The notes beneath the pieces were generated by a model. The model saw nothing but the letters and a program-made list of their open reading frames with translations, did no database searches and was not told where the DNA came from. Both the position numbers and the translations under genes were made by a program. A stretch of DNA of 63,183 bases from Planctomycetota bacterium (GTDB lineage: Bacteria > Planctomycetota > Planctomycetia > Pirellulales > UBA1268), in NCBI GenBank assembly GCA_016872555.1, contig VGZO01000023.1, forward strand, positions 1 to 63,183. The letters are read 5' to 3'. The number at the start of each line of letters is the position of its first letter. Position 1 is the first letter of the stretch. Positions 30,162 to 36,300 of the stretch are shown here, in pieces.

Positions 30162-33100
30162 ATGCTCTCCCCCACGCAGCGCGATCTGGTCAGGCAGTCA
30201 CTCGGCGACCTGCTCGCCGCCAGCCCGGGGGCCGACGTCGACGCGCTCGCGACCGCGGCGACGCGCCTCGACGTGGCCGAGGGGGAGGTGCTCGTCACCG
30301 AAGGCGAGCCGGCCGGCGATGCCTATGTGCTCCTGGCGGGGCGGTTCGGGGTCTATGTCCGCGGCGCCGGCGCGGGGCTGCGCCGGATCGACACCGTCGA
30401 ACGCCCCGGCTCCTTCCTCGGCGAACAGGCGCTCGTCGCCGGGCGCCACTTCCGCACCGCGACCGTGCTGGCGCTCGAGCCGGCGACCGTGGCCGTGCTG
30501 CCCGGGGCGCTGTTGGGAGCGCGGATCGCCACTGACCCGGCCGCCGGCGCCGCGCTGCAGCGCCAGTCGGTCGAAAACGCGTGGCGCAAGTGGCGCGCGT
30601 TGGCCGCCGAGCTCGCCGGCGCCACCGGGGCGGCGCCGGCCCAGTCGCGGCAGCTCCGCGCGGGGGAGGTGCTGTTCGAGCCGGGCGATCCCTCGACGCA
30701 TGCCTACTTCGTCCTCGGCGGCGAGATCGGCCTCTGGCATCCGGGGTGCCCGGAACCGAGCGAGACGATCGGCCCCGGGCTGCTCGTCGGCGAGCGCGGC
30801 ACGCTCGCCGGCCGGCCACGCCGGCTCCGCGCGGCGGCGCTGTCGGCCGCCGAGCTGTTGGTCATCGAGGCGACGGCGCTCGAGGGCTCGCGGCGCGGCA
30901 CGGGGCCGTTCGCGACGATGCTCGAGGGCCTCGCCACCGCCCACGACCTCCCCACGCTCGGCACCGCGTACCGGTATCTCGCCCATGTCGGCGACGAGTC
31001 GTGCATCGTCACCGACTATTCGGGGTCGGCCGCGGGGCGGGTGCGCGTCCGCCACTTTCCCGCCGGTCCACGCACCGAGGCGGTTCGCAGCGGCGCTGCT
31101 GAAGTGCCGCGCGACGTCGTCTCATCTCCCGATGGCACCGTCTCGATCATGCTCGGCGACGGCGACAGGCTCGTCGGCCTGTCGACGACCGGCGCCTGGC
31201 CGCACCTGCCGGCGCTGATGGGGCTGCTCCTGCGCGGCGGCGCGGTCGCCGACTGGCAGCGCCGGGCATTCACCGCGACCGGGAGTTGGCTCGAGGAGGC
31301 GGCGGCGCAGCGCGTGCCGACTGGCGCCGAGATCGTCTGCAGTTGCACGCTGGCGACGGCGGGGGCGATCCGCACCGCCGCGGCCCGGGCGGCGACGGTC
31401 GAGGATCTGGTGCGCGTGACCGGCGCCGGCGGCGTGTGTGGTGGCTGCCGCGGCCGGCTGGCGGCCCTCCTCGGCGGCGGTGGCTTCGCGCTGTGCCGCG
31501 TGGAGATCGCGCCGCTGGCCGTCGGTGCGGTGCGCGCCCGGCTCGTGCCGATCGACTCGCGCCCGCTGCCGGCCGCGGCCGTCGGCCAGCACGTACGCGT
31601 CGAGGGGCTGATCGACGGCCGCTGGGTCGGCCGCCCCTACACGCTCACCGCCGCCCGCCCCGACGGCTACGAGCTCGGGGTCAAGCTCGAGGAAGGGGGC
31701 CTGTTCTCCCCCTGGTTGGCCGCCGCCGGGCCAGACACGCTGGTGCGCGTGCTGCCGCCGCAGGGAGAGTGCTGCCCCGCGGCCGACGGCCCGGCGACGC
31801 TGGTGTATGTCGTCGCCGGCATCGGCGTGACGCCGGCGATCGCGGCGGTGCGGAGCCTGGCGGCGACGCGGCGGATCCGGGTGATCTTTTCCGCGCGCTC
31901 CCGCGACGCCGCACCCTACCTGGCGGAGCTCGAGGCAGCGGCCAAGGCCGGACGGATCGGCCTCGAGACCTGGTGGTCCGCGAGCCAGGGGCGGATCAGC
32001 GGCGCGGCGCTTCGTCAGCGCGTGGCGGCCGAAGGCGCGTGCGACGTGATCGCGTGTGGCCCGGCCGACTTCAATGCCACCGTCGCCGCCGCCCTCGCCG
32101 GCTTGCCCGGCGTGGCCGTGGCCTGCGAGAGCTTCGACCATCCGCTCCGCGGCGAGGGAAGTGTCGGCCGCCCCGGCGGCTGGCGGCGCCGGCCGTTCAC
32201 GCCGGCCGGTCCCCCCGGGGGCGAGGTGACGATCGCCACGACGCTGCCCGCGGTCGAACAAGCGGAGCGGTTCCTCCTGCAGTACTTCGCCGAGCAACGC
32301 CCCGGCACCGATCCGGCCCAGCGGATCACGCGCGTCAGGGAGGCGTTCGCGGCGACCGGCACGTGGCGGAAGACCGCCGACGAGTTGGCGTTCGCCGCCC
32401 GGCTCGCGTGGCGCAACGCCGGCCGCTGCGTCGGCCGGCTCCACTGGCAGGCGCTCCACCTCCGCGACTGCCGCCACCTCGATACTCCCGACGACATCGC
32501 CGAGGCGCTGTTCGAGCACCTCCGCTTCGCCTTCAACGGCGGCAACATCCGCCCGGCGATCACCGTCTTCGCCCCCACCACGCCCGACCGCCCCGCGCCG
32601 CGGGTCTGGAACCCGCAGCTGCTCCGCTACGCCGGGCTCCGCCTCCGCTCGGGACGCCAGGTGGGCGACCCGGCGCAAAACGCCCTCACGCGCCGGATCA
32701 TCGACCTCGGCTGGGAGCCCCCCGGCACCGACTTCGACCTCCTCCCGCTGGTGATCGAGACGCCGACCACCGGCCCGCGCCTCTATCCCCTCCCCGCCGA
32801 CTGCCGCCCAGAGGTGCCGCTGTCGCACCCCGATCATCCCTGGTTGGCGGCGCGGGGGCTCAAGTGGTACGCCGTGCCTGCCGTCAGCGACATGGCCCTC
32901 GACGCCGGTGGAGTCACCTACCCGTTCGCCCCGTTCAACGGCTGGTACCTCGACGCCGAGATCGCCGCGCGCAACTTCACCGACGCCGACCGCTACGACC
33001 TCCTCCCCGAGATCGCCGAGCGGATGGGGCTCGACATCGGCAACGACCGGACGCTGTGGCGCGACAAGGCGCAGCTCATGCTCACCGAGGCGGTGCTCTG

Positions 33101-33341
33101 GTCGTTCGACCGGGCGGGGGTGAAGATCGCCGACCACCACGCCGTCGGCCACGAGTTTCTCGAGTTTTGCCGCAACGAGCAGGCCGCCGGCCGCGAGCCC
33201 TACGGCCGCTGGATGTGGCTCGTGCCCCCGGTCGCGGCGTCGACGTCGGTGCTGTATCGCGAGCCGTTCAAGGACGTGTCGCTCAAGCCCGCCTACCGTT
33301 ACCAGCGGCCGGTGTGGGCCGACGGACCGGCAGCAGGGTGA
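30162..33341 (+). CDS. nos: Self-sufficient nitric oxide synthase with cNMP-binding, [2Fe-2S], FAD/NAD and NOS oxygenase domains
   Basis: A 1059-residue fusion. Domain order: a CRP-type cNMP-binding domain (about 36-125) whose phosphate cassette is kept (FLGEQAL, R98 in RTATV); a second, degenerate one (about 165-245); an unassigned part (265-385); a Bfd-like [2Fe-2S] domain with C393xC395 and C426xxC429; an FR-type FAD domain (R491-P-Y-T-L-T) and NAD domain (GIGVTP 553-558, CGPADF 632-637); and a full NOS oxygenase (about 696-1052). The oxygenase has WRNAGRCVGR with haem ligand C756, FNGWYLDAEIAARN with the arginine-binding Glu E933, and RWMWLVPPVAASTSV. It should make NO and citrulline from arginine using NAD(P)H without a separate reductase. 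Sorangium NOS also carries an N-terminal iron-sulfur/FAD/NAD reductase. The cNMP domains suggest allosteric control. The next gene starts 14 bp later. Confidence 0.93.
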   Translation: MLSPTQRDLVRQSLGDLLAASPGADVDALATAATRLDVAEGEVLVTEGEPAGDAYVLLAGRFGVYVRGAGAGLRRIDTVERPGSFLGEQALVAGRHFRTATVLALEPATVAVLPGALLGARIATDPAAGAALQRQSVENAWRKWRALAAELAGATGAAPAQSRQLRAGEVLFEPGDPSTHAYFVLGGEIGLWHPGCPEPSETIGPGLLVGERGTLAGRPRRLRAAALSAAELLVIEATALEGSRRGTGPFATMLEGLATAHDLPTLGTAYRYLAHVGDESCIVTDYSGSAAGRVRVRHFPAGPRTEAVRSGAAEVPRDVVSSPDGTVSIMLGDGDRLVGLSTTGAWPHLPALMGLLLRGGAVADWQRRAFTATGSWLEEAAAQRVPTGAEIVCSCTLATAGAIRTAAARAATVEDLVRVTGAGGVCGGCRGRLAALLGGGGFALCRVEIAPLAVGAVRARLVPIDSRPLPAAAVGQHVRVEGLIDGRWVGRPYTLTAARPDGYELGVKLEEGGLFSPWLAAAGPDTLVRVLPPQGECCPAADGPATLVYVVAGIGVTPAIAAVRSLAATRRIRVIFSARSRDAAPYLAELEAAAKAGRIGLETWWSASQGRISGAALRQRVAAEGACDVIACGPADFNATVAAALAGLPGVAVACESFDHPLRGEGSVGRPGGWRRRPFTPAGPPGGEVTIATTLPAVEQAERFLLQYFAEQRPGTDPAQRITRVREAFAATGTWRKTADELAFAARLAWRNAGRCVGRLHWQALHLRDCRHLDTPDDIAEALFEHLRFAFNGGNIRPAITVFAPTTPDRPAPRVWNPQLLRYAGLRLRSGRQVGDPAQNALTRRIIDLGWEPPGTDFDLLPLVIETPTTGPRLYPLPADCRPEVPLSHPDHPWLAARGLKWYAVPAVSDMALDAGGVTYPFAPFNGWYLDAEIAARNFTDADRYDLLPEIAERMGLDIGNDRTLWRDKAQLMLTEAVLWSFDRAGVKIADHHAVGHEFLEFCRNEQAAGREPYGRWMWLVPPVAASTSVLYREPFKDVSLKPAYRYQRPVWADGPAAG

Positions 33342-33355
33342 CGGGAGGACGGACG

Positions 33356-36300
33356 ATGGCGTGGAAGCGGGTGGCGTGGGCGGCGGTGCTCGGTGCCTGC
33401 GCGACGGTCGGCGCTCCACGGGGCGGGAGCGCCCCGCCGGCCGTGCCGGGGATCGAGCCGCCGCCGCCGGCGCGGGAGCCGCGCGTGGCGCCGGCGAGCG
33501 ACGAACCGGTCGGCGCCGCGGCGGCGATCGGGGTGCCGGAGGGGTTCACGGTCGAGCCGTTCGCGGCCGAGCCGCTGATCGCCAACCCGGTCGCGTTCAC
33601 GATCGACCGGGCGACGGGCGTGGTCTACGCCTGCGAGGCGTTCCGCGCCCACAAGGGGGTCGGCGACAACGTCCGGATCAACGACGACACCTGGCTCGAC
33701 GCCGACCTGGCCTCGCGCCACGTCGACGACAGGTTCGCGTTCATGGTTCGCCTGCTCGGCGACCGGGCGCCGGAGTGGGTCGCCGAGACCGACCGCGTCC
33801 GCCGGATCGTCGACAGCGACGGCGACGGCCGCGCCGACCGGGCGACCGTCTTCGCCGACGGGTTCAACCGGCTCGTCGACGGCCATGCCGCGGGGATTGT
33901 CGCCCGGCGCGGCGCCGTCTGGCTGGCCTGCATCCCGTCGCTCTACCACCTCGTCGATGCCGACGGCGACGGGATCGCCGAGCGGCGCGAGCCGCTCCAC
34001 ACCGGCTACGGCGTGCGCGTCGCCATCCAGGGCCACGATCTCCACGGACTCACGCTCGGCCCCGACGGCCGGCTGTGGTTTTCGATCGGCGACCGCGGCT
34101 ACGCCGTCGACGGGGGCGACGGCTCCCTCCAGAACCCGGAGAGTGGCGCCGTGTTCCGCTGCGAGACCGACGGCTCGGGGCTCGAGGTCGTCCACACCGG
34201 ACTGCGCAACCCGCAGGAGCTCGCCTTCGACGACCTCGGCAACTTGTTTACCGTCGACAACAACACCGACGGCGGCGACAAGACGAGACTCGTGTGGATC
34301 GTGCCGGGGGGCGACTCCGGCTGGCGCGGGCCGGTGCAGTACCTCCCCGACCGCGGGCCGTTCAACCGCGAGGAGCTGTGGCGGACGGCATTCCCGGGGC
34401 AGGCGGCGTTCATCGTGCCGCCGCTGGCCCACATCGGCGCCGGGCCGGCGGGCTTCGCCGCCGATCCCGGCACACTGCCGGAACCCTGGCGCGGCCGGTT
34501 CTTCCTCGCCGATTTCCGCGGCGCCGCCGCCACCAGCTCGGTGCGCAGCTTCCGGATCGAGCCGGCCGGCAGCGCCTTTGCCGCCGTCGATGAGGAGGAG
34601 ACGTTTCGCCACGTCCTCGCGACCGACGTCGAGATCGGCCCCGATGGCGCGGTGTGGGTGAGCGACTGGGTCCACGGCTGGGACGGCCTCGGCAAGGGGC
34701 GGCTGTGGCGCTTCGTCCCCCGCCCCGCCGATCCCGCCGCGGCGGCCGCGCACTCGCGCGCCGTCGCCGAGGTCCGCACGCTCCTCGCCGGCGACTGGAC
34801 GGCGCTGCCCTCCCCCCGGCTCACCGAACTGCTGGCCCATGCCGATCGGCGGATCCGGCTCGAAGCGCAGTGGGAGCTGGCGCGGCGCGGCGACGACGCG
34901 GCGCTCCGCGCCCGGCTGGCGGCCGACGAGCCGCTGCTCGCCGTCGTCCACGCGCTGTGGGGCATCGAGCAGATCGCCCGGCGGCTGCCTGCCGGCGACG
35001 CGCGCCGCCGGACGCTGACCGACGACCTCCTCGGCCGGCTCGGCGATCCGCGCCGCGAGGTGCGCCTCGTCGCCGCGCGCTGCCTCGGCGACCAGGCCCC
35101 CGCCGCGGGCCCGGCGATCGCGGCGCTGGTGCCGCGCCTCGACGACGGCGATCCGTTCGTCCGCGGCGCCGCGGCGATCGCTATCGGCCGCCTCGCCGGC
35201 AGCGCTCCCGATTCGCTCGACCGGCAGGCGCTCGTCGGGCGGATCGTCGCGGCGATCGCGGCCGCCGGCGCGCGCGACGCCACGCCCGATCCCCATGCCC
35301 GTCATCCGCTGGTCATGGCCCTCGCCGGTGCCGCCGATGGCCCGGCGCTCGGCGCGCTGCTCGGCCATCCCGACCGGGCCGTGCGGCTCGCCGCCGTCCT
35401 CGCCCTCCGCCGCCACGGTGATCCGGCGATCGCCCGCGCCCTCGACGACGCCGACGCGGCGATCGTCGTCGAAGCGGCCCGCGCGATCCACGACGTTCCG
35501 ATCGCGGCGGCCACCCGGGCGCTCGCCGGCAAGCTCCTCACCGGTCCGCGCGAGGGCCTCGACGGCGACGCCTTCCTGCGCCGGGCCCTGGCCGCCGCCG
35601 AGCGCGAGGGGACGGAGGCCGACGCCGAGCGAGTCGCCGCGCTGGCGGCCAGCGCCGGCATGCCGGCGGCCCGGCGGCTCGAGGTGCTGGCGCTGCTGGC
35701 CGGCTGGGCGGCGCCGCGGCCGCGCGACCGGGTGATCGGCAGCTGGCGGCCGTTCGAGCCGCGCGATGCCGAGCCGGCGCGCCGGGCACTCGCCGCCGTG
35801 ATTCCCACGCTGCTGGCCACCGACGACGAGGCGGTGCGCACCGCGGCGCTCGACGCCGCGGCGACGCTCGGCATCGACGGCGTCGCCGCCCTCCTCGCCG
35901 CCGCCGTCACCGACGGCGGCCGCCCCGCCGCGGCGCGAGGGGCCGCCCTCGAAGCGCTCGGCAACGTCGATGGAGCCGCGGCGCTCGAGTTGACGCGGGG
36001 ACTCGCCGCCGCGCCGGCCGCTGCACTACGCACCGCGGCGTGGCGCGTCCGGGTGCGCCACGGCGCCACCGCGGGGCTCGCCGACGAGCTCGCCTCCGCT
36101 CTCGGCACCCGGGCCGCCGACGACGAGCGCCTCCGCGAGCAGCAGGCGGCGCTCGGGATTCTCGGGCAGCTCGGAGATGCCGCGCCTACAACGCTGCTCG
36201 ACCGTCTCGCGGCGGCGCTGGGCAGCGGCGCCGGCGATCCGCGGCTCCGGCTCGAGACCCTCGCGCTCGTCGGCGACCGCGTGCCCACCGCCCTGCGCAC

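Follow-up and report, generated by a model that had tools for sequence, protein, structure and literature searches.

Second-messenger control, exerted through Ca2+/calmodulin, is a hallmark of animal NO synthases (NOS). Among bacteria the characterised NOS of Sorangium cellulosum (scNOS) combines a 2Fe2S ferredoxin, FAD and NAD units and the oxygenase in this order (PMC3701330), and the review descriptions of it mention no cyclic-nucleotide-binding (cNMP) domain (PMC3701330, PMC9311577). The NOS of Synechococcus is organised as C2-globin-oxygenase-diflavin, and Ca2+ control has recently been shown for a cyanobacterial NOS (PMC12922734, PMC6104048). On this point a 2026 paper on syNOS notes only auxiliary domains in some prokaryotic NOS. 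A fusion of cNMP domains to NOS was not found described in the literature searched, which largely lacked subscription papers.

The window, i.e. the whole stretch of 63,183 nt analysed here, carries on its plus strand a complete CDS of 1059 aa (30162..33341) with the order tandem cNMP, Bfd-FAD-NAD reductase and NOS oxygenase, as judged from the frame, Pfam and the starts of orthologues. Like scNOS it joins N-terminal 2Fe2S, FAD and NAD units and a C-terminal oxygenase in one chain; the two are set apart only by what the reviews describe for scNOS (a 2Fe2S ferredoxin, no cNMP domain mentioned). With oxygenase-only NOS of the B. subtilis type it shares the oxygenase with haem Cys and arginine-binding Glu, but those enzymes have neither reductase nor sensor. 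Synechococcus NOS is likewise self-sufficient and has N-terminal regulatory domains; in contrast, its reductase is a C-terminal diflavin (FMN/FAD) unit and it responds to Ca2+ instead of a cyclic nucleotide. Mammalian NOS resembles the window protein in its homologous oxygenase and in an electron supply under second-messenger control, as we predict it here, but differs by a C-terminal diflavin reductase, a zinc site and the use of calmodulin. We regard the window protein as a variant of self-sufficient bacterial NOS that is probably regulated by a cyclic nucleotide, and cNMP domains on such an enzyme may be new relative to scNOS as the reviews describe it.

The frame runs from an ATG at 30162 to a stop codon ending at 33341 with no interruption, and its start matches the equivalent starts in the orthologues L001, from a named planctomycete MAG, and L013 (G393), which are 79% and 80% identical to the window protein, respectively. 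A domain search found cNMP_binding (twice), Fer2_BFD and NO_synthase. A first-pass annotation had read from the bare letters a NOS with its own N-terminal reductase, carrying Bfd-type cysteines, FAD and NAD motifs and a complete oxygenase in one uninterrupted frame. All of this holds: the order Bfd-FAD-NAD-NOS lies in a single frame, so that no break separates reductase and oxygenase, and the individual motifs are given below. A chance ORF or a misassembly is ruled out by the orthologues, by selection and by FtsK and PVC-type neighbours conserved in the genus; chance in particular is excluded because there are four orthologues at 51-80% identity and the within-genus dN/dS is 0.07-0.39 per domain. 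As to the neighbours, ftsK lies on one side of the NOS gene in the window and in L013. On the other side, beginning at 33356, 14 bases past the NOS stop codon, lies a gene for a PVC-type HEAT/cytochrome c protein; a homologue in L001 sits further downstream. Other relatives show halogenase-like and MarR genes (G449) or two SPFH (Band 7) genes (G399) near the NOS gene; an operon partner common to all NOS relatives was not found among the neighbourhoods examined. The AlphaFold model of the whole chain (pLDDT 46) is too poor for a fold search or for inter-domain contacts, and the model of aa 256-446 (pLDDT 52.8) is likewise too poor for either.

The layout is rare. Of 392 Planctomycetota genomes sampled, 4 contain PF02898; in the window's own family its occurrence is patchy (5 of 72 genomes, distributed over three genera). 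All five family members have the fused layout, G399 (L012) without the second cNMP domain. The core layout is thus kept in four relatives of the same family and, moreover, in one protein from a distant planctomycete family (G171, family f51). There, a tandem cNMP part with two near-canonical cassettes (Pfam 4e-37) directly precedes Bfd-FAD-NAD-NOS across an apparent frameshift. The frame changes beside a C run at about 6500-6525 of L011, where the cNMP tandem gives way to the remainder of an otherwise intact gene; left unrepaired here, the change may reflect either faulty assembly or a genuine split. A search of the genome contig collection with the full protein matched only the genus-level relative L001. 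In the NOS tree the five family members group together on a long stem (support 100/100); G171 has no firm place there, and it may or may not derive from the same fusion event as the window family.

The NOS oxygenase domain (aa 698-1052, 32253..33317) is supported by PF02898, which covers positions 6-361 of 362 in the model (E 1e-131), and by structure-database matches (E 6e-98), among which Bacillus-type and mammalian NOS are closest. Alignment with solved NOS places the haem-thiolate Cys756 at 32427..32429 and the arginine-binding Glu933 at 32958..32960. Both are invariant in five homologues, as are R937, W1017 and W1019, and the first-pass annotation had named the same Cys and Glu. The pterin site keeps R937, W1017 and W1019, yet the Phe-His that solved NOS have towards the C-terminal end of this site (VFHQE in eNOS, IFHRS in 2flq) is replaced by L1031-Y1032; the roles of these residues in the pterin pocket are presumably those generally known from NOS structures. 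Leu-Tyr (VLYRE or VLYQE) is found in all five family members and G171 keeps Phe-His. In the window the site reads SVLYRE (aa 1029-1034, 33246-33263). Because the pocket is altered in this way throughout the window clade, its cofactor use or preference may differ from that of other NOS. Going further, the protein might be an inefficient NO maker with an arginine-dependent or haem-oxidase side activity, using a different pterin or none, for which the Leu-Tyr exchange and the long stem of the clade could be taken as signs. Since the haem Cys, the arginine-binding Glu, R937 and both Trp are invariant and the NO_synthase match is that strong, we consider such altered chemistry very improbable.

The reductase includes a Bfd-type [2Fe-2S] domain (aa 391-437, 31332..31472; PF04324, E 5e-10) whose cysteines are arranged as C393/C395 (CxC), X30 and C426/C429 (CxxC). 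PF04324 was found in 6 of 6 NOS-linked homologues scanned; the profile of the domain matches Bfd structures such as 6e6r, and NCBIfam assigns 389-437 to the Bfd part of NirB. The FAD-binding domain (aa 441-540, 31482..31781) contains RPYTLT with RPYT at 491, and the NAD(P)-binding domain (aa 545-660, 31794..32141) contains GIGVTP at 553 and CGP at 632; both are supported by profile matches. FAD_binding_6 at 473-536 stays below threshold in the window protein (19.2 vs 21.1 bits) but exceeds it in homologues (best 3e-6), and NAD_binding_1 was matched in two of them. Moreover an NCBIfam flavohaemoprotein model matches 461-646 (E 7e-13), and the nearest solved relatives of the reductase part are Hmp and other FAD/NAD reductases. 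Residues 263-388 (30948..31325) have no Pfam match of their own. They are called NirB-like because in the related family f21, treated below, the NirB match (TIGR02374) runs continuously over this segment and the Bfd domain; by analogy the region would be a NirB-like segment rather than a linker.

At the N-terminus Pfam PF00027 (cNMP_binding) matches two stretches (E 2e-25), cNMP1 at aa 38-118 (30273..30515) and cNMP2 at aa 163-241 (30648..30884). The closest solved relatives of aa 1-258 are the cNMP domains of PKG, PKA-R and Mll3241. The phosphate-binding cassette of cNMP1 (aa 86-101, LGEQALVAGRHFRTAT, 30417..30464) is complete: GEQAL at 87 provides G87 and E88 and is followed by R98, T99 and A100, i.e. 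the pattern Gly-Glu...Arg-[Ser/Thr]-Ala. The cassette of cNMP2 (aa 209-225, VGERGTLAGRPRRLRAA, 30786..30836) retains GE and one Arg, but R-L-R-A replaces R-[ST]-A. An intact first and a degenerate second domain is also what had been claimed before. The R-[ST]-A motif is missing from cNMP2 throughout the window clade, and in L018 (G449) the cassette Arg is absent as well. For cNMP1, GE, L, R and A of the cassette are retained in L001, L013, L018 and G171; between the window and L018 the cassette is 50% identical (8/16) compared to 26% (22/85) for the rest of the domain. CRP relatives that bind no cNMP typically lose the Gly, Glu and Arg of the cassette. In G399 cNMP2 is lost and cNMP1 has GK for GE while NOS and reductase are intact. 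Because of these losses next to an intact NOS, cNMP binding seems dispensable at least in G399 and is, judging from the sequences, not indispensable everywhere.

Selection was evaluated module by module as dN/dS (NG86) between the window and its genus relatives. At this level purifying selection acts on all modules, with an overall dN/dS of 0.21-0.23. For cNMP1 the two relatives show 70% and 76% identity with dN/dS of 0.39 and 0.17, for cNMP2 93% and 89% with 0.07 and 0.16. The degenerate cNMP2 is thus the most conserved sensor module, ahead of cNMP1 with its intact motif. One may ask whether the cNMP domains, in a self-sufficient NOS with no ligand control, are remnants or have a structural role only, for dimerisation or as a scaffold. 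This would fit the degenerate motif of cNMP2, the intact NOS and reductase of G399 and a cNMP1 that within the genus has diverged more than the NOS domain. It fits less well with a cNMP1 cassette kept in four other lineages despite low overall identity and with the low dN/dS of both domains, and we regard it as unlikely, also in view of the family f21.

The host has possible sources of a cyclic nucleotide. Its genome encodes three class III cyclases, all on contigs other than the NOS contig, and further cNMP proteins; that no cyclase gene adjoins the NOS gene is a point against regulation by a cyclic nucleotide. Residues were assigned by eye. In the receiver-linked cyclase on contig C47 the two metal Asp are present together with the Lys/Asp pair that characterises adenylyl cyclases, whereas the one on C20 has no second metal Asp. 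Since the signature residues of an adenylyl cyclase are thus intact in one of the encoded enzymes, a ligand would be available in principle and cAMP is the most likely predicted ligand of cNMP1; the R-T-A motif alone does not discriminate cAMP from cGMP. On C20 (L023) the degenerate class III cyclase lies close to an MscS-like channel ending in a cNMP domain. A different ligand is conceivable as well, namely a cyclic pyrimidine nucleotide, haem or NO as product feedback, or a metabolite. The cNMP fold is versatile, the Pycsar effector PycTIR, whose ligand is a cyclic pyrimidine nucleotide, is among the matches of the domains, and the strong selection on the degenerate cNMP2 suggests a non-canonical role. 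With Gly, Glu and Arg retained in cNMP1 and no pyrimidine-cyclase neighbour of the NOS gene found, such a ligand appears improbable to us.

Searching 392 planctomycete genomes with aa 256-665 of the window protein yielded, in addition to NOS proteins, matches in 10 genomes of family f21 (10 of 16 sampled from that family; loci L042, L044-L051 and L053-L056), where the tandem-cNMP/Bfd/FAD/NAD module stands without NOS. To find this block on a different haem output is new in the present analysis. Full-length copies are frames of 857-908 aa with two canonical cNMP domains, a NirB-like segment, Bfd, FAD and NAD. They share the N-terminal sensor/reductase block with the window protein (32-37% identity over Bfd-FAD-NAD), but end in a predicted membrane b cytochrome and not in NOS. 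This hydrophobic C-terminal domain matches no Pfam family above threshold and has five invariant His in nine sequences, including two pairs with a spacing of 14 residues. From this we infer that the domain is a di-haem b cytochrome in the membrane, similar in kind to ferric reductases and b561. A neighbour gene with five CxxCH motifs (pentahaem cytochrome c) is present in the three f21 loci examined (G190, G043 and G177), and succinate dehydrogenase/fumarate reductase-like genes lie upstream in G190 and G101; Pfam was applied to the neighbour genes of G190 only. Seemingly, the f21 protein looks like a cyclic-nucleotide-gated exporter of electrons from NAD(P)H to the periplasm.

Because the tandem-cNMP block recurs in f21 without NOS, it belongs with the reductase and not with NOS. 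In the tree of the reductase, which lacks an outgroup, the branches are long. Since the cNMP domains travel with the reductase, cyclic-nucleotide gating of the electron supply is favoured over a merely structural role, against which the canonical state of both f21 cassettes and the fusion to the same reductase in two output contexts also speak. Tentatively, planctomycetes could possess a portable module for cyclic-nucleotide-gated electron delivery from NAD(P)H, made up of the cNMP tandem, the NirB-like segment with Bfd, and FAD/NAD. It would be plugged onto unrelated haem outputs, namely a soluble NOS oxygenase in the window protein and in the remote family of G171, and a transmembrane di-haem b cytochrome partnered by a pentahaem cytochrome c in f21, and would gate electron flow directly. 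If so, it would be a bacterial analogue of the Ca2+/calmodulin control of NOS. That such a block is also attached to a predicted membrane cytochrome points to a more widely used principle by which cyclic nucleotides would control redox flow.

Taken together, we consider it reasonably probable that the window protein is a self-sufficient bacterial NOS in which a cyclic nucleotide controls the supply of electrons. FAD would be reduced by NAD(P)H, and from FAD the electrons would reach the haem of the C-terminal oxygenase by way of the Bfd-type [2Fe-2S] cluster, a path suggested by the domain order and by scNOS as reviews describe it. The oxygenase would turn L-arginine into citrulline and NO, as expected from the domain identity and from catalytic residues that are all preserved. 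The two cNMP domains in tandem at the N-terminus, in a PKA-R/PKG-like arrangement, would act as a switch in which cNMP1 binds the ligand and cNMP2 is probably a rigid relay onto the Bfd/FAD unit, permitting or blocking the reach of the cluster to the haem. The identity of the ligand, whether it activates or inhibits, and the route of the electrons are what we infer from the features above. In such a protein cAMP/cGMP and NO would be connected on a single bacterial chain, with the signal running from cyclic nucleotide to NO and thus opposite to the animal NO-to-cGMP pathway. The gating idea is open to a direct test with soluble recombinant protein.

Outside the fused layout, NOS genes were seen in other surroundings. 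Viral contigs gave no match. Among plasmids 14 records matched, the best match of each spanning the oxygenase only, and no window-type reductase was found in the plasmid records searched. The NOS oxygenase of G270 (L014) lies in a frame of 589 aa that has no window-type reductase. Here and on a Novosphingobium plasmid (L040), in unrelated bacteria, the NOS gene adjoins radical-SAM genes, the neighbour in G270 being judged by eye from its sequence. On a Nostoc plasmid (L020) NOS lies between SDR genes, followed by desaturase and aminotransferase genes. These three surroundings possibly represent nitration or natural-product clusters.
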